Assembly (NCBI GenBank): GCA_025360125.1
Contig: JANYCU010000052.1
Coordinates: 1-64,000, forward strand
DNA length: 64,000 bases
Reading direction: 5' to 3'
From: Armatimonadota bacterium
GTDB taxonomy: Bacteria; Armatimonadota; Fimbriimonadia; Fimbriimonadales; Fimbriimonadaceae
The notes below the pieces were generated by a model that was given only the letters and a program-made list of their open reading frames with translations, was not told the DNA's origin and did no database searches. The position numbers and the translations under genes were made by a program. Shown here one piece after another: positions 52,246 to 59,669 of this stretch; the stretch's first letter is position 1; each line of letters starts with the position of its first letter.

Positions 52246-52575
52246 TTAGTGACCGCATTGGGGACAAACCCCGAAGTGGGCACCATAGACATGGTGGCAA
52301 TTGAGGCAGTATTTGTCTCCGTCCGGGTCAACGTCGGGGACATCGGACTCTTCGTAGGTGCCTTCTCTGATGAGGGAGTTGAGATTTGTTAGACTGTAGG
52401 GATCTCGGTTATCGTCCCGCCATTTTCGAAATCGAAGGGCAATTGCAAGGATGAAGCAGAACCCGGAAGCAATAATACTGGGCCGTGAAACGGTTGGAAT
52501 CGGCCAAAAGGAAATTCCAACTAGTATGAAGATCGCGCAGAGCGCGACCAAACGGAACCAAGGTTGTCGCGTCAA
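52246..52575 (-). CDS. Small membrane protein with C-terminal zinc ribbon
   Basis: A 109-residue protein. Two hydrophobic helices (about 8-24 and 31-48), a polar middle (NSLIREGTYEESDVPDVDPDGD), and a zinc ribbon YCLNCHHVYGAHFGVCPQCGH at the end with four Cys in CxxC...CxxC form. It lies 22 nt after the second subtilase gene on the same strand, so it may be the last gene of that locus. Function unknown. Confidence 0.65.
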   Translation of the reverse strand: MTRQPWFRLVALCAIFILVGISFWPIPTVSRPSIIASGFCFILAIALRFRKWRDDNRDPYSLTNLNSLIREGTYEESDVPDVDPDGDKYCLNCHHVYGAHFGVCPQCGH

Positions 52576-52597
52576 GCTAAGAATAGCTTAACCCAAA

Positions 52598-53779
52598 TTA
52601 GTCGCCCCGTAGGAAAAAGGACAGGTTCGTAAAGTCAAGAAGTTTGCCGAGCTTTCCATGGAAGAGTGGGTTCAGTAGGTCAATGTTCTTCCCGGAAACG
52701 GTCAGGGCGAAGCGAAGGAATTCGGGACTCCGACTCGAATGACTTCCTAGGGCGACGGCCAGGCTGCCCGTTACAAGGGGAGCGGCCAGCGAAGTTCCTG
52801 ACCAATTTGCTTGTTCGCCATTGAACCAGGGACCAACCAGGCCATTGGCTGGCGCGGCGACCCGAGCAATTGTGTCCCAGTTACTGAAGTCTGCTTTATT
52901 ATTGTTTGAATCTAACCCGGTGACACAAACAACCTTGCCGTAAGCGGCAGGATAGAGGGAGCCGAATGTTCTGTTGTTTCCGATCGGAGCAACGATCAGC
53001 GATCCATTCTGTTCGACCCAATCGAGAAACCCGGCGAAGCCAGGAAGGATTGTTTGGGACCCTAGGCTTACATTGATGATTTTGGCTCCGTTTTCGACGC
53101 AGAACTCTACGCCTTGGATCACCGACCATGGTGTAGCTACTCCGTCGCTGTCGGCCGATTTTGCGACAATGAGTGGGATATTGGGGCCAATTTGGGCAAT
53201 GAGGCCAGCAATGATTGTTCCGTGCCCTGCACCTTCATCGAGTACGCCGTTTTGGTTTGTATCGAGCCCAGTTGGTAGGTCATCGATGGTTGGAGAACCG
53301 GGAACAAAACTTGCGCTGGCCACAATTTTGGCTCGGAGGTCCGGTTGGAGTGGTGAAACGCCAGTGTCTACAATGCCGACTTTGACCGAAGTGGGTCGAT
53401 GGTCTTGGACGGTTAAGTTGATTTGTCGAAAGATGGCCGGATTTGCCGGAGAAACTACTGAACGATCGATGATTGCGGCGACTGAACTTCCGTGGCCGCT
53501 ATTCCGGCCTTTAATGTCTCCATCAACAACTACCCATCGAACCCGATAATCGATTTGAAAATCTTGGATTGTTTGGTCGACATTTGCGTCATCGACAACG
53601 AAGCGGGCGAAAGGAGATTTTCCTGCTTTGTCGAAGCTTGTAATCGACGGATAGTCGGCCAAGACCGATTGAAGGTCGCTTGAATTGGATAGTCGAACGA
53701 TGAGGCCGCTTGCGAAAAGTTGACAGGAAAGGCAAGCGATTGAACCGAAAACGGTAAAGAGGCGATAATGAAACTTCAT
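52598..53779 (-). CDS. Secreted S8 subtilisin-like peptidase (second paralogue)
   Basis: A 393-residue protein. Signal peptide about 1-24, propeptide-like region about 25-130, and catalytic triad Asp138 (GIVDTGVS), His186 (GAGHGTIIAGL), Ser330 (WSGTSLAAP), with oxyanion Asn268 (IGNN). It is a close paralogue of the gene at 53993, sharing SGHGSSVAAI before the Asp motif and DSNNNG/DTNQNG-LDEGAGHG around the His. It has its own upstream region after the terminator at 53938-53966, so it may be expressed separately. Confidence 0.92.
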   Translation of the reverse strand: MKFHYRLFTVFGSIACLSCQLFASGLIVRLSNSSDLQSVLADYPSITSFDKAGKSPFARFVVDDANVDQTIQDFQIDYRVRWVVVDGDIKGRNSGHGSSVAAIIDRSVVSPANPAIFRQINLTVQDHRPTSVKVGIVDTGVSPLQPDLRAKIVASASFVPGSPTIDDLPTGLDTNQNGVLDEGAGHGTIIAGLIAQIGPNIPLIVAKSADSDGVATPWSVIQGVEFCVENGAKIINVSLGSQTILPGFAGFLDWVEQNGSLIVAPIGNNRTFGSLYPAAYGKVVCVTGLDSNNNKADFSNWDTIARVAAPANGLVGPWFNGEQANWSGTSLAAPLVTGSLAVALGSHSSRSPEFLRFALTVSGKNIDLLNPLFHGKLGKLLDFTNLSFFLRGD

Positions 53780-53937
53780 GGGGAGGTGCTATCGCACCCA
53801 ATTGGTGGGGCTATATTCGGGTGAAAGGAAGGGCGCTGATACTTAGGTTTTTCCCTGCTTTTTAAGGCTCTAATCCTGTCAGAAAAGCCAAGATTTACTC
53901 GTCAAGCTTTTTTCTCGATTTGGGGCAATGCAGGCAT

Positions 53938-53966
53938 AAAAAAGGGACCCTTACTTAAGGGGTCCC
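53938..53966 (-). terminator. Terminator after TPR-CHAT/subtilase operon
   Basis: On the minus strand GGGACCCC...GGGTCCC forms a 7-9 bp GC stem with a small loop, followed by TTTTTT. It lies 27 nt after the first subtilase stop. Confidence 0.88.
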
Positions 53967-53992
53967 GATGAGTACAGGTTGGGTGAAAGGGT

Positions 53993-55177
53993 TTATCGTT
54001 TGAGGATGCCAACCAAGGCGTTGAAGTCGAGAAGTTTGCCCAGCCGACCTCGGTAAAGGGGGTTGAGGTTGTCAATATTCCTTCCGGAATTGGTGAACGC
54101 AGACCGGATTGCGCTCGGAGACTTTGCTGGATTTACGGCTAAGGCTATGGCTAAGCAACCCGTTGCCAGGGGCGCGGAGAATGAAGTACCCGACCAGATG
54201 GCGGTTCCGCCGTCCCACCAAGCACTTAGGATTCCGGTGGCTGGTGCTGCCACCCGCGCTGAACTGTCCCAATTGCTGAATGGTGCGCGAGTATTGTCGG
54301 GCAATAGTCCGGCAACATTGATGACAGACGAGTAACCAGCGGGGAACAAGGTCATGTTGAGATTGTTGTTTCCGATTGGAGAAATGATCGTAACGTTTGC
54401 TTTGCCTACCCAGTCCATGAACGATGAAAAGCCTGCAAGTCGGTCTGGTGAGCCGAGGCTAATATTGATGATTTTTGAGCCATTTTCAACGCAGAAAACA
54501 ACGCCCTTCATGACGAGCCACGAAGAAGACATTCCGTCGCTGTCGGCGGATTTTGCGATGACCAGTGGAGTGTTGGGGGATAGTTGCAGAATGATTCCGG
54601 CGACCATTGTTCCATGGCCAGCACCTTCATCTAAAATGCCGTTGTTGTTGCTATCGAGCAAGGTTGGCATGTCATCAATCGTTGGCGAATTGGGGACAAA
54701 GCTCTCTTTGGCAACAATGTTTGCAGTAATTGACGACTGGAGATGGGATACACCTGTATCGACGATCCCCACTCGAAGTGGCGTATATTGTCGACCAATT
54801 GGAGAGAAATCAATTTGCTTCCAGATGTCTTTGTTTTGACCAAAAACAGCAGTTCGGTCATAGATGGCGGCAACTGAGCTTCCATGACCGCTTTGGTTTT
54901 CTGGTGCATCGTATGAGTCTTCGTCTTCAACCCAAACAATCCGAGGATCACTCGAAAGGGCGACTTCTAACACGTCGACATCCCCAGGCGAGACTTCGAA
55001 CCGGACGAATGGAGATTGTCCGGCGATGTCGACGCCAAGAATGACGGTGTAATCGGTAACGATAGAAGAAATGACACTCGGATCAGTTACTTGGCATATG
55101 ACTCCATTGGCCAAAGACTGTCCGACGGCAAAGATTGCCAAAACAAATGAGAGCAACAAACGCTTAATTAACTTCAT
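53993..55177 (-). CDS. Secreted S8 subtilisin-like peptidase (first paralogue)
   Basis: A 394-residue protein from the ATG at 55177, which overlaps the TPR-CHAT stop as ATGA. Signal peptide about 1-23 (LLLSFVLAIFAVGQSLA), propeptide to about 133, catalytic Asp140 (GIVDTGVS), His188 (GAGHGTMVAGI), Asn270 (IGNNN) and Ser332 (WSGTSFSAP). SGHGSSVAAI at 96-105 looks like a second subtilase His motif but lies before the Asp motif, in the propeptide, and is probably a processing or linker feature. Co-translation with the CHAT protein ties an exported protease to a cytoplasmic one. Confidence 0.93.
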   Translation of the reverse strand: MKLIKRLLLSFVLAIFAVGQSLANGVICQVTDPSVISSIVTDYTVILGVDIAGQSPFVRFEVSPGDVDVLEVALSSDPRIVWVEDEDSYDAPENQSGHGSSVAAIYDRTAVFGQNKDIWKQIDFSPIGRQYTPLRVGIVDTGVSHLQSSITANIVAKESFVPNSPTIDDMPTLLDSNNNGILDEGAGHGTMVAGIILQLSPNTPLVIAKSADSDGMSSSWLVMKGVVFCVENGSKIINISLGSPDRLAGFSSFMDWVGKANVTIISPIGNNNLNMTLFPAGYSSVINVAGLLPDNTRAPFSNWDSSARVAAPATGILSAWWDGGTAIWSGTSFSAPLATGCLAIALAVNPAKSPSAIRSAFTNSGRNIDNLNPLYRGRLGKLLDFNALVGILKR

Positions 55178-57834
55178 GATGTGTATCCACCAAACATAAC
55201 TAGGGAGGCCCAATATGCGGGGTGAGAAAACTTTTCTTTCAGGTCTGACCGAGCGTCAGACAACGAGTCGCTAACTGAGCGACCAACTTTTAGTTTACGA
55301 TAGAAAGTGCTAAATCCGAATTCTGCGGCAATGTCGCTGAGCGGCCAAAGTGAGCCGATGACCACTTCGCTTCGGCGAGCCAGAAAAGCCCGCGCCAGTC
55401 CTTGCGGTTCCCATCCGGTGGGTTGCCCCATCGATGCGGAGTCGCAGGATGCGAGCGTGGCAATTCGAGTTCGAAATGCCGAGCGCGCGATATCACACGC
55501 TAACAAGTGCCCATCTGCTAATTGAATGCTCGAGAACATCGGGTTTTCGTGATCGTATCGTCCATGCGCAGCAACGTGAATGAGATCGAATGACTCTTGG
55601 TCGGCTGATTTCAGGATTTCGTCTACGGTCGAATAAATCTTTGCTTGGGGGAACATATTTCGGATTTGTGCTACTTCACGATCAATATGAGGCAACTCCT
55701 TGCGGGAAAAATACCATATGCCAATTTTGGGGTCATTTCCTAGAAAAGTTCTACTGGGACAAATGCTTGCCCGGGGTCGAAGATGGAGGACGGCCTCTTT
55801 GTTTGTGAGTAAGGCCCACGGGATTTGGTAGGCGACATCTTCGACCGAGACATGAAGGTTATTGCCGACGGACTCTAACGATTCAACTCCAAGATCGGCT
55901 CGAAGTCGTTTGATTTCACGGTCCAGGCGAATATCGTCGGACAAGAATCCCGATAAGGGAGCCATTAGTTCAAAGTGAATCCATCTCAGTCGTGTGATCA
56001 GTTCCTCTCGAGTGATCGAGAAGTTTTGCGTTTTCTTTTCTGAAAGCCAGGCGGAACCATTTTGCAAGAATATGAAAGTGTTGACTGGCGTTTGGTTCTC
56101 TGAAAGGTTTTTTTGATTGAGTCCGTCAATTCTGCTCAATCCAATTTGCTCGAGGTACTCACGCACGAGTGCAGGTTTGCTCCAAAGTCCATTCGCGATC
56201 AGGCGAAGTGGTCCCCCAGGTAGCTGGTCTCCACCATCGGCGGTTACTTCCTGCCGGATTCGATTGAGAATCGACTGGGCGGAATCGGACATTGATTCCC
56301 CTCCCGCCAGTAAGAATTCATCGAGAAGGGTGATTGACCGAAGATCAGAAATGACTTGCAGCGCTTCTTTGGTTGCGGCAGATGACTTTTTCTCAATAAG
56401 GATAGTGAGGTAGGTTCGGATACTTATGAGGCAAGGCTCGATGAGGCTGGTTCGGGCAGTGATGGACGACAGTCGGGCTCGGTGGTTAAGGATTGTTTCG
56501 AGCATTTTTCGATACTCGCGGATAGCCCCGGAATTAGTTATGGAAGACTTGGCTCGGATCGAGTGAATTCGCCATGCGTCGCCAATGAAGCCAAATTTGC
56601 GAATGATCTTGCTAGCTTCTGAGAGTAAGTCTTCGTTCTTGCTTTGGATTTCAGCGAGATCGAGTAACGCTCCGACTAGGAAATGGAACATTCGCCTCGA
56701 CCGCAGGTCGGTTATCGATTTTTCGAGAATTTTCTTTGCGGGTCCGATTCGTCCTAGGGAGATTTCGGCCCTTGCGAGTCCGATTTGGCTCAAGTTGTTG
56801 GCGGGGAAGTTGCCGATCTTTTGGTGTATTTTACTGGCGCGGTGATAGAATTCCTTTGCTTCCTTTCCTCGACCTTGGTGAAGGCGAACATCTCCGAGGC
56901 CCACGAGGATGTAGCCGTGGTTGAGTTGAGACTGTCGGATGCCTGGTGAATTGAGTGCGGACTCAAAGGCATCTCCGGCCGCATCGTACACCTGAAGATC
57001 AAGCCAAGCATCACCCAAGAATTGACCAAGGCGAGTGAATTCGAGGGAATTGGGTTCAGAATTGGCCCTTAATTCTGAGAAAATGCGGACGGCTTCGTCC
57101 GCTCGCCCCATCATTGCATGGCAGTGCCCGATGTTAATCCGTGCATGGTTTGCGTAGGCGTTTGCGCCGATCTCAAACATTTCGTCGGACGCTTGTTGGG
57201 CTAAAGCTAGCGAGCGGCTCGGGAGGTCAACGTAGAGAGCAGACGTTGAAATGCCTAGGCGTGCCGACGCGGCCTCTAGACTAAATGGAGTATCTCGAAG
57301 CAGTTCGTAGGCTTTTGCTAGGCATCTTTGAGCATCTTTGTGGCGGTCGGCCCAATTGTAAGCATTGCCTGTGTTGAGCCAGGCGCGCCCAGCTAATGCG
57401 AGCTCGCCAATGGACTCTAAATTTGTGGCGATGGTGCGACCCAGGCGGACGGCGGCATCGGTTTTGCCCACTCGGGCAAGGCTGTCAACGGCACCCGTTT
57501 GGAAGCTGAATTGGTGAACGGCAGTCGTCGCGAAGGATCCGGCGCGGATAAAGGATTTTGCACTGGCTTCCCAATTTCCGTTGATGCGTTCGAGTGCCCC
57601 TTTTGTTCGCCAGGCGTATGAGCGGTCGTCACCGAGTTGGTCGACAATTGACCAACCTTCGGCGAGTTTTCTCGCTTCGGCGGGGTTTTCTCCAAGAAGC
57701 GTTGCGACGCGAAAAAAGAACCTTTCGGCAAACCCAGTGGCGGGCTGATTCTTACGAAGAAGGGCTCGTCTTTCCGATGCGTCGGCTTGCTCAAAGGCTA
57801 CGAGGAGGCTAGACGTTTCCATCTCCGGTCTCAT
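55174..57834 (-). CDS. TPR-CHAT protease
   Basis: An 886-residue protein. About 20-520 is a TPR-like helical solenoid (AWLNTGNAYNWADRHKDAQRCLAKAYELL, ARINIGHCHAMMGRADEAVRIFSELR, GYILVGLGDVRLHQGRGKEAKEFYHRASKIH). About 640-886 is a CHAT caspase-like domain with His757 in LIHVAAHGRYD and Cys797 in TLASCDSASMGQ, then GLARAFLARRSEVVIGSLWPLSD. The dyad is intact, so it should be an active cysteine peptidase. No signal peptide, hence cytoplasmic. The start lies inside the preceding gene (overlap about 26 nt). TPR-CHAT proteins are known proteases that cut protein partners when activated, as in type III-E CRISPR. Confidence 0.92.
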   Translation of the reverse strand: MRPEMETSSLLVAFEQADASERRALLRKNQPATGFAERFFFRVATLLGENPAEARKLAEGWSIVDQLGDDRSYAWRTKGALERINGNWEASAKSFIRAGSFATTAVHQFSFQTGAVDSLARVGKTDAAVRLGRTIATNLESIGELALAGRAWLNTGNAYNWADRHKDAQRCLAKAYELLRDTPFSLEAASARLGISTSALYVDLPSRSLALAQQASDEMFEIGANAYANHARINIGHCHAMMGRADEAVRIFSELRANSEPNSLEFTRLGQFLGDAWLDLQVYDAAGDAFESALNSPGIRQSQLNHGYILVGLGDVRLHQGRGKEAKEFYHRASKIHQKIGNFPANNLSQIGLARAEISLGRIGPAKKILEKSITDLRSRRMFHFLVGALLDLAEIQSKNEDLLSEASKIIRKFGFIGDAWRIHSIRAKSSITNSGAIREYRKMLETILNHRARLSSITARTSLIEPCLISIRTYLTILIEKKSSAATKEALQVISDLRSITLLDEFLLAGGESMSDSAQSILNRIRQEVTADGGDQLPGGPLRLIANGLWSKPALVREYLEQIGLSRIDGLNQKNLSENQTPVNTFIFLQNGSAWLSEKKTQNFSITREELITRLRWIHFELMAPLSGFLSDDIRLDREIKRLRADLGVESLESVGNNLHVSVEDVAYQIPWALLTNKEAVLHLRPRASICPSRTFLGNDPKIGIWYFSRKELPHIDREVAQIRNMFPQAKIYSTVDEILKSADQESFDLIHVAAHGRYDHENPMFSSIQLADGHLLACDIARSAFRTRIATLASCDSASMGQPTGWEPQGLARAFLARRSEVVIGSLWPLSDIAAEFGFSTFYRKLKVGRSVSDSLSDARSDLKEKFSHPAYWASLVMFGGYTS

Positions 57835-58345
57835 CAACGATCATTGGTAAGAGAATCGTGGTTGACTCATTTTGCAGCGAAAGCGGTTCAACGCTGCTGG
57901 TTTGGACATCGAGTTCAAATTCGCCATCATCGTTACATTCGACTTGCGACGTACCCGACCATAGACTCCATCCTGGGGCTGAGGTTCGTCCCCATAGCCG
58001 CCAACCATTGGGAATCTCTTCGATTTGGATGCGAACATTTACTTCTTCGGATTCGAATTGAATTTGGGAAACCGCTCCTCGGGCAAAACCGAGAATGGGT
58101 CGTGGGTGAACCAAACGTCCAATTGAGAACTTTCGGGAAGATTGGGGCATGATTAACTTAACTTGAGAGACCAGATTGGCGGGCGCTGCTTGCCACGATT
58201 GTGACAAGGATGTGTGCATTCGCTGATATTGGTTCAAGACCATTAGTTCTTCGGCGGACATCGAATCGCGAGAAGCGTCGTTGCCTCGGGCAGAGTCCCA
58301 TAGCTCTGCAAGTCGTAATTCGGTTAAGTTCAATCTCATGTTCAA
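57809..58345 (-). CDS. Beta-rich partner protein between sigma factor and TPR-CHAT
   Basis: A 178-residue protein. The N-terminal ~60 residues are helical (RLAELWDSARGNDASRDSMSAEELMVLNQYQRM). The rest looks like a beta sandwich (RKFSIGRLVHPRPILGFARGAVSQIQFESEEVNVRIQIEEIP, WRLWGRTSAPGWSLW, DDGEFELDVQTSS, ESTTILLPMI). No Cys, so no zinc anti-sigma motif, and no membrane helix. By position (16 nt after the sigma gene) it is the candidate soluble regulator of the sigma factor and a possible CHAT substrate. That role is inference. Confidence 0.65.
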   Translation of the reverse strand: MNMRLNLTELRLAELWDSARGNDASRDSMSAEELMVLNQYQRMHTSLSQSWQAAPANLVSQVKLIMPQSSRKFSIGRLVHPRPILGFARGAVSQIQFESEEVNVRIQIEEIPNGWRLWGRTSAPGWSLWSGTSQVECNDDGEFELDVQTSSVEPLSLQNESTTILLPMIVDETGDGNV

Positions 58346-58361
58346 ATACTCAAGAGGATGG

Positions 58362-59027
58362 TTAATCGTGATTTAATTCACTTTCGAAGAAATTTACAGA
58401 AATAAGTGCTTGTCGAAGTCGTTCAATGCATCGTGCCCGGGTTGGTCCAATCGACCCGGTAGGAATTTGGAGCTGATTTTTGACGTCTTCGTAGCTACTT
58501 TCTTCATTGGAGTAGAGCATCGAAAGCAGTTGGGGGCATTTGCCAGGGAGTTGGCTCATGACGTTTCGGACCGTGTTGGATTGAGAGGTGGCGATCGCTA
58601 TTTCTTCTACTGAGGTCTCTTCGGCGGCAAGCATTTCATCAAGGTTTTCGATGGCATCCATTGAGATGGTTGACTTATCTCGGTTGAGGCGGTGGACGCG
58701 GATGGCTTCTCGGGCGGCGGTGGTTGCCAACCATTTTGGTAGGGCGAGAGCCGAGTCAATTCGATCTAGGTTTTTGTAAAGGATGACGAACACCTTTTGA
58801 AAGGTGTCTTCCGCATCTTCGTTTCGGAGGCCGACCCGGTAAATGGAAGACCAAACGAGAGCCTGAAATCTATCAACAAGGATGCCCCAAGAGTTTGAGT
58901 CTCCAGCTTTACATTTGCGAACCAGGATCTCTAAATCCGATATGAATGGTTCGTTCGCCATGCGCTGTGCGAGTATATCATAGGCATTTTCAGCTTCCTG
59001 AGGAGTCGGCGGTCGGTCTATCTTCAC
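58362..59027 (-). CDS. ECF-type RNA polymerase sigma factor
   Basis: A 221-residue sigma-70 family protein. Region 2 is about 45-120 (WGILVDRFQALVWSSIYRVGLRNEDAEDTFQKVFVILYKNLDRI and LPKWLATTAAREAIRVHRLNRDK). Region 4 is about 160-215 (NVRNVMSQLPGKCPQLLSMLYSNEESSYEDVKNQLQIPTGSIGPTRARCIERLRQAL). There is no region 3, so it is ECF group IV. It starts at GTG 59027 and heads the locus sigma, partner, TPR-CHAT, subtilase. Confidence 0.9.
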   Translation of the reverse strand: MKIDRPPTPQEAENAYDILAQRMANEPFISDLEILVRKCKAGDSNSWGILVDRFQALVWSSIYRVGLRNEDAEDTFQKVFVILYKNLDRIDSALALPKWLATTAAREAIRVHRLNRDKSTISMDAIENLDEMLAAEETSVEEIAIATSQSNTVRNVMSQLPGKCPQLLSMLYSNEESSYEDVKNQLQIPTGSIGPTRARCIERLRQALISVNFFESELNHD

Positions 59028-59174
59028 GATTTTCGCTTCTACGGGGCTTATTCCAGGGTCTCTTTGTCGGATTACCTGGTCTATCTTGCAAAAAACGATT
59101 GTCCTGTATTTTTCCCTCGTAATGGCCCCTCATGGGGAGTAATGGGTTCAAACATTGGCCGATGAGTTAAAAGA

Positions 59175-59669
59175 ATGAGACCAAATCGAAATCTATTAAT
59201 TTTGTTGTTTGCTGTGATGATGCTTGCGATGTCGACTTGCGCTGTGCTCGCCCAAAGCGGTGGTGGCGGCGGGGGAGGAGGTTCCGGCGGTGGTGGTGGT
59301 GGAAACTCTCGTCACGGCGGTAGCTTTAACCTTACTTTTGACCATAATGGCACCGTTGGTGGCAGTCGATGCAGTTGCGTCGGTGGTTACAACATAACCA
59401 CTTACGTTACGACATTGAGTATCGACTACAAGATGAAGAATTCCGACCTTCCAGACGGAACACTTGTTTTTGCAACCGTTTATTCTCGGGACTATTTCAC
59501 GGGCTTGCCTTGGGCTCCTATGGCTGGCGGAGCATGCTCAATGGTGGCTGGAGCAATTTCGTTCCACAATCCAAACGTGGTTACAACTGGCGTTTTTGGA
59601 TTGCCCGTTGTAACTTCGGTCGTCCTCACACTAGCCGATGGCACCGTGGTTTTTAGCGGGCATCCGTAA
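59175..59669 (+). CDS. Gly-rich secreted protein divergent from the sigma factor gene
   Basis: A 164-residue protein with a signal peptide (about 1-26, FAVMMLAMSTCAVLAQ), then a Gly/Ser run of about 16 residues, then a folded domain with three Cys (SRCSCVGG and GGACSMV), mainly beta strands (YNITTYVTTLSIDYKM, PVVTSVVLTLADGTVVFSGHP). I do not recognise the domain. It is 147 nt from the sigma gene on the opposite strand, the usual place for an ECF target (inference). Confidence 0.6.
   Translation: MRPNRNLLILLFAVMMLAMSTCAVLAQSGGGGGGGGSGGGGGGNSRHGGSFNLTFDHNGTVGGSRCSCVGGYNITTYVTTLSIDYKMKNSDLPDGTLVFATVYSRDYFTGLPWAPMAGGACSMVAGAISFHNPNVVTTGVFGLPVVTSVVLTLADGTVVFSGHP

Follow-up and report, generated by a model that had tools for sequence, protein, structure and literature searches.

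We describe a conserved operon in a window of 64,000 nucleotides from an Armatimonadota bacterium of the family Fimbriimonadaceae (GCA_025360125.1, JANYCU010000052.1), which is contig 36 of a draft genome of 4.13 Mb and on which contig positions and window positions are the same. The operon encodes an extracytoplasmic function (ECF) sigma factor, a 178-residue protein here called X, a protease with tetratricopeptide repeats (TPR) and a CHAT domain, and a subtilase of peptidase family S8. We consider it somewhat probable that this core operon works in the cytoplasm as a sense-and-release switch, in which a sigma factor inhibited by X is freed when the CHAT protease cleaves X. This reading builds on the conservation of the operon, the identity of X as an anti-sigma factor by homology, the catalytic residues of CHAT and S8, and the invariance of a single arginine of X (Arg89).

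In the proposed mechanism, the N-terminal helices of X would keep ECF sigma and RNA polymerase apart and the TPR solenoid would sense a cytoplasmic trigger; the CHAT domain would then cut X, with Arg89 or its immediate surroundings in the linker as the probable site. The freed N-terminal fragment of X would dissociate or be destroyed, and the sigma factor would switch on its own operon, giving more of the components together with the exported S8 subtilase, the putative output. Each of these steps, from the inhibition of sigma by X through the trigger, the cleavage and its site to the autoregulation and purpose of the system, is a prediction of the model.

An Operon Conserved across the Armatimonadota

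All genes of the operon lie on the minus strand of the window. The sigma factor (open reading frame 58362-59027, probable true extent 58362..58961, 199 residues) matches TIGR02937 (1.9e-16) and Sigma70_r2 (9.5e-9). X (57809..58345, ATG 58339) begins 16 nucleotides after the sigma reading frame and is overlapped by the gene for the TPR-CHAT protease (55174..57837; 887 residues from TTG 57837, with an ATG at 57834), which matches CHAT (PF12770, 1.6e-26) and TPR_12. The subtilase S8a (53993..55177; 394 residues; Peptidase_S8, 2.1e-27) starts at ATG 55177, which sits on the CHAT stop codon as an ATGA overlap, and the gene is followed by an intrinsic terminator, CCCTTAAGTAAGGG-TCCCTTTTTT (53961-53948). 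The gene order, strand, reading-frame positions, overlaps and terminator given in a first-pass annotation of this DNA were all confirmed on the window.

Of 85 genomes searched at family level with the TPR-CHAT protein as query, 36 encode related proteins; the neighborhoods of these matches were read, followed by those of more distant CHAT matches across the phylum Armatimonadota. Counting the window, the order sigma-X-CHAT-S8 on one strand occurs at 39 loci and the order sigma-CHAT-X-S8 at nine, numbers that give no unbiased frequency, since the loci were picked by CHAT similarity. These operons span six families of the phylum, and a few further loci are rearranged or run off the end of a contig. 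Among named relatives, the nearest that the search found is a metagenome-assembled genome of an uncultured Fimbriimonas (L017), which marks the source as a Fimbriimonas-like bacterium. X adjoins CHAT in both gene orders, and at almost every locus the gene after CHAT is S8. The co-occurrence of the four families in two gene orders lies far beyond chance. The first-pass annotation had made conserved synteny of these families one test of its proposal, and the proposal survives it, with synteny extending across the phylum.

Pairwise distances among the four proteins correlate at 0.75-0.91 over 40 loci (permutation maximum, 0.23); the species tree is not factored out of these values, so they indicate co-inheritance rather than co-adaptation. 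Joint inheritance of the four genes argues against the reading that CHAT, sigma and S8 respond to infection as parts of an anti-phage or cell-death system. A CHAT relative does work in type III-E CRISPR (PMC10028731), and PADLOC returned a weak BovA match for the CHAT domain, along with weak IetS/subtilase matches for S8; these matches, however, cover shared domains only, modules for recognition, nuclease activity or pore formation are absent, and S8 appears to be exported. We regard a role in defense as improbable.

One further locus (L082:3077-6936) encodes a separate sigma factor, a 288-residue anti-sigma-like protein with an HxxxCxxC motif and a 740-residue CHAT protein, but no S8; the three parts may have come together there independently. 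The genome of the window encodes a second CHAT protein of about 1057 residues (G000:C56:280383-281021), near which the profiles used found no sigma or S8 gene.

The Probable Anti-Sigma Partner, the CHAT Protease and the Linker Arginine

X from the window alone has no match in Pfam or NCBIfam, so its family link was found only after orthologues had been aligned. Many of these carry the motif HxxxCxxC followed by a helix, APxxLxxxAKxLMP. A profile of 23 members with the zinc motif, searched against the Protein Data Bank (PDB), matches RsiW at 7.1e-6, with ChrR chains next (0.08); because this set was selected for the motif, a profile of 19 members not so selected serves as the unbiased test, and its only significant match among all PDB sequences is RsiW (0.0013). 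Pfam zf-HC2 is matched by seven of the 23 members and CarboxypepD_reg by three, all under the Pfam cut-offs. The aligned region of RsiW includes its APADFTANVMAKLP helix, which corresponds in position to helix 4, the element that touches sigma2 in anti-sigma factors of class I (PMC7406223). The zinc motif is frequent among class I anti-sigma factors but not obligatory (PMC7406223); it is present in 25 of 54 members of the X family and missing from X in the window.

An AlphaFold2 model of X from a two-sequence alignment (mean predicted local distance difference test score, pLDDT, 71) has helices at residues 9-21, 31-49 and 56-65, a linker with pLDDT below 50 at 81-87 and a beta sandwich from residue 92; a single-sequence model has a mean pLDDT of 53. 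X thus combines a helical bundle with a later helix 4 after a linker, as expected of a class I anti-sigma factor, and its gene adjoins that of the ECF sigma factor that it is predicted to inhibit. The C-terminal half is, in the model, an Ig-like sandwich resembling carboxypeptidase regulatory domains. Foldseek returned nothing under E 0.001 for the model, and the matches from VIA-align, with Z at most 7.1, were generically Ig-like with no distinctive one; such lists are uninformative on anti-sigma folds, as the beta domain filled them. Hydropathy found a membrane segment in none of 44 X proteins, which would place X in the soluble fraction and within reach of a cytosolic CHAT protease.

On these grounds, above all the match of the orthologue profile to RsiW and then ChrR, homology gives good support for identifying X as a soluble anti-sigma factor of class I, without zinc in this species. 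The same homology lends strong support to the first-pass proposal that X is a binding partner of sigma; the first-pass description of X as free of cysteine is incorrect, since the protein carries one (C137), outside the anti-sigma domain. RsiW is membrane-bound and is cleared by intramembrane proteolysis, and ChrR is a zinc-dependent sensor. X has the same helical domain with helix 4, by profile, and differs from both in being soluble, in bearing an Ig-like domain and in often missing the zinc ligands.

The TPR-CHAT protein has the His-Cys dyad of a clan CD protease: His758 and Cys798, numbered from TTG 57837 (757 and 797 from ATG 57834), are conserved along with Trp831 and Asp835, and the dyad is kept in all intact orthologues. 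The first-pass annotation had called the CHAT dyad and the triads of both its subtilases intact; they are, and they are also conserved in relatives. A plausible site of cleavage lies in X itself. Although the 54 X proteins share little else, Arg89 (codon 58079..58081, minus strand) is identical in every one of them, the next-best column reaching 87%. It lies in the linker directly N-terminal to the beta domain, and one cut there would part the two halves of X. Since it is invariant and so placed, Arg89 is the best candidate for the CHAT cut site, and cleavage of X by CHAT is the likeliest predicted step in the release of sigma.

A rather unlikely alternative keeps X as the anti-sigma factor and has CHAT act without cutting it, as an adaptor on the Ig-like domain or through a conformational change of X, while the protease cuts some other substrate. 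Soluble zinc-binding anti-sigma factors usually work by conformational change (PMC8999054), and the Ig-like C-terminal domain would be a plausible docking site. Against this stand the zinc ligands, which fewer than half of the X proteins (25 of 54) and not that of the window possess, so zinc-based redox sensing is not general; the catalytic residues, found in every intact CHAT copy; and the operon itself, which has no other conserved cytoplasmic candidate substrate.

The CHAT catalytic segment is nearer to eukaryotic separase (3e-6) than to Csx29, the TPR-CHAT protease of type III-E CRISPR (0.04): the segment around the catalytic cysteine aligns with separase and has a Trp 33 and an Asp 37 residues after that cysteine. 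Asp835 was considered as the counterpart of D2151, which reads the P1 arginine in separase, and rejected, as it aligns four residues before D2151. The present system also differs from separase in having neither securin nor cohesin.

Several observations weigh against the proposed switch. D2151 is not conserved in CHAT, the equivalent column being variable (E839 in the window; A, M, S or K elsewhere), so the separase pocket lends no support to an arginine specificity. Arg89 may instead be structural. Some X proteins (L099, L100 and L102) lack most of the helical bundle that would hold sigma. In type III-E CRISPR the N-terminal fragment of the sigma inhibitor Csx30 remains bound to sigma after cleavage (PMC9729208). 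Finally, the promoter-like element TGATAYACT found upstream of the sigma gene was absent, in a scan of the window, from the regions before the genes for a second subtilase (S8b) and a Gly-rich protein that flank the operon.

The Sigma Start and Exported-Looking Companions

The start of the sigma factor is probably ATG 58961 rather than GTG 59027. The reading frame is open up to the GTG chosen in the first-pass annotation; the ATG is preferred from the position of TGATAYACT and from alignment with relatives. The element in the window, TGATATACT (58972..58980, minus strand, present once), resembles a -10 element, lies 10 nucleotides upstream of ATG 58961 and has counterparts shortly before the sigma ATG in relatives. 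TGATA[CT] occurs within 45 nucleotides before the sigma ATG at 11 of 46 loci (shuffles: mean 1.0, maximum 7), and at about ten loci the distance is about 10-25 nucleotides. This spacing suggests a near-leaderless sigma transcript, for which a housekeeping promoter and a sigma-specific promoter are alike possible. Two candidates for a regulon motif were set aside: TGATAYACT, proposed as common to sigma, S8b and the Gly-rich gene, occurs in the window solely upstream of sigma, and GAAAAATACAGGACAAT (59098..59114, minus strand), also upstream of sigma, has an exact match in the closest relative only. In most of the family's sigma factors, region 4 is followed by a conserved terminal Phe-Phe tail (GFFE or NFFE; window 58362-58420, minus strand).

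The N-terminus of S8a is hydrophobic and signal-like by inspection and hydropathy (2.05 in a hydropathy window near the N-terminus), and the Asp/His/Ser triad is present in S8a, in S8b and in aligned relatives. S8b (52598..53779, minus strand; Peptidase_S8, 1.7e-28) lies past the terminator and shares 51% identity with S8a; this tandem duplicate was seen only in the window among the loci examined. Beyond it, a 109-residue small membrane protein with weak zinc-ribbon matches (52246..52575, minus strand) is probably outside the system; the first-pass annotation had listed it in the gene order, and no homologue was found in the other loci searched.

Divergent from sigma, a Gly-rich, secreted-looking protein (59175..59669, plus strand) occupies the place taken by other secreted-looking proteins elsewhere. 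A family of about 125 residues lies head-to-head with sigma at 13 loci (L050, L053, L057-L059, L061-L063, L065, L067, L068, L070 and L072); the two members scanned have no Pfam match, and the Gly-rich protein was rejected as a homologue, the similarity not being significant. Members occur in 14 of 24 family genomes with an operon of the window type and in two of 61 others, a difference for which the Fisher p of 5e-8 is optimistic because the genomes are related; conversely, 14 of the 16 family genomes that carry the protein have the operon. At loci of the order sigma-CHAT-X-S8 (L073, L075, L076, L079-L081 and L097), a secreted-looking repeat protein of about 300 residues (NNVSAEL...GGQGDD) is divergent from sigma. 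Exported-looking proteins are therefore a recurring companion of the operon, perhaps as S8 substrates or sigma targets. The first-pass suggestion that both subtilases, and perhaps the Gly-rich protein, are exported effectors holds in part: one operonic S8 with a signal-like N-terminus is found in nearly all loci, whereas S8b was seen only in the window among the loci examined and the Gly-rich protein has no significant similarity to its counterparts.

Relation to Type III-E CRISPR and ECF54

In type III-E CRISPR, the sigma inhibitor Csx30 is the substrate that Csx29 cleaves (PMC10028731). The system described here, known from its genes, resembles Csx29, Csx30 and CASP-sigma in combining a TPR-CHAT protease and an ECF sigma factor with a sigma partner of two domains, and a CHAT profile searched against the PDB matches Csx29-type chains at 1e-7. 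The partners differ, Csx30 having about 565 residues and X 178 residues and an affinity with the RsiW class. The first-pass annotation had described the locus as free of CRISPR, and this was borne out: no CRISPR-like array was found within 48-64 kb of the window, and profile searches of the genome, whose positive controls fired, found no Cas1 or RAMP gene. Given this absence and a score of 15.6 bits for the CHAT protein against the Csx29 model (cut-off, 300), the operon is not a member of type III-E.

A further precedent, missed by the first-pass annotation, is the ECF54 sigma group, the neighbors of which encode CHAT, subtilase and "carboxypeptidase" domains and which was described without an anti-sigma factor (PMC8999054). 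By neighborhood, the likeness extends to all three domains, the carboxypeptidase-like element of our operon being the regulatory-like beta domain of X; the idea of such a neighborhood is thus already known from actinobacterial ECF54. The difference lies in the class I anti-sigma domain of X, and what is new, by sequence comparison, is a "carboxypeptidase-like" partner that appears, at least in Armatimonadota, fused to such a domain. In Nonomuraea (L086 and L092), S8, sigma and CHAT stand together, and a short X-like reading frame after sigma keeps the arginine and not the helical bundle. The actinobacterial X-like proteins do not match the X profile significantly with filters; unfiltered, one beats 200 shuffles (14.4 against 7.4 bits) and the other does not.

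For ECF54 it has been proposed that the proteases shut the system off by degrading sigma, with no anti-sigma factor involved; the published loci have carboxypeptidase-like, subtilase and CHAT proteins (PMC8999054), and the motif GSIGPTRxRC is common to the sigma factors studied here and to a Nonomuraea sigma factor that adjoins S8 and CHAT. For the present operon we hold this to be very unlikely, less likely even than a defensive role: X is recognizable as a class I anti-sigma factor, and an S8 subtilase with a signal-like N-terminus would not come into contact with a sigma factor in the cytoplasm.

More broadly, and with less than even confidence, we tentatively propose that these loci form a CRISPR-independent, phylum-wide class of one-shot transcription switch. 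Its separase-like TPR-CHAT protease would cleave a soluble anti-sigma factor of class I on the C-terminal side of a single invariant arginine. Such a class would explain actinobacterial ECF54 and would make Csx29-Csx30-sigma a version of an older module recruited by CRISPR. ECF54 may have an overlooked anti-sigma factor, its "carboxypeptidase" neighbor being perhaps the half of a protein of the X type that is regulatory-like. As far as the literature compared shows, control of a sigma factor by TPR-CHAT is known experimentally only from type III-E CRISPR; the conserved chromosomal version offers a small system, free of an RNA guide, in which to learn how TPR-CHAT proteases are activated and how they choose their substrates.

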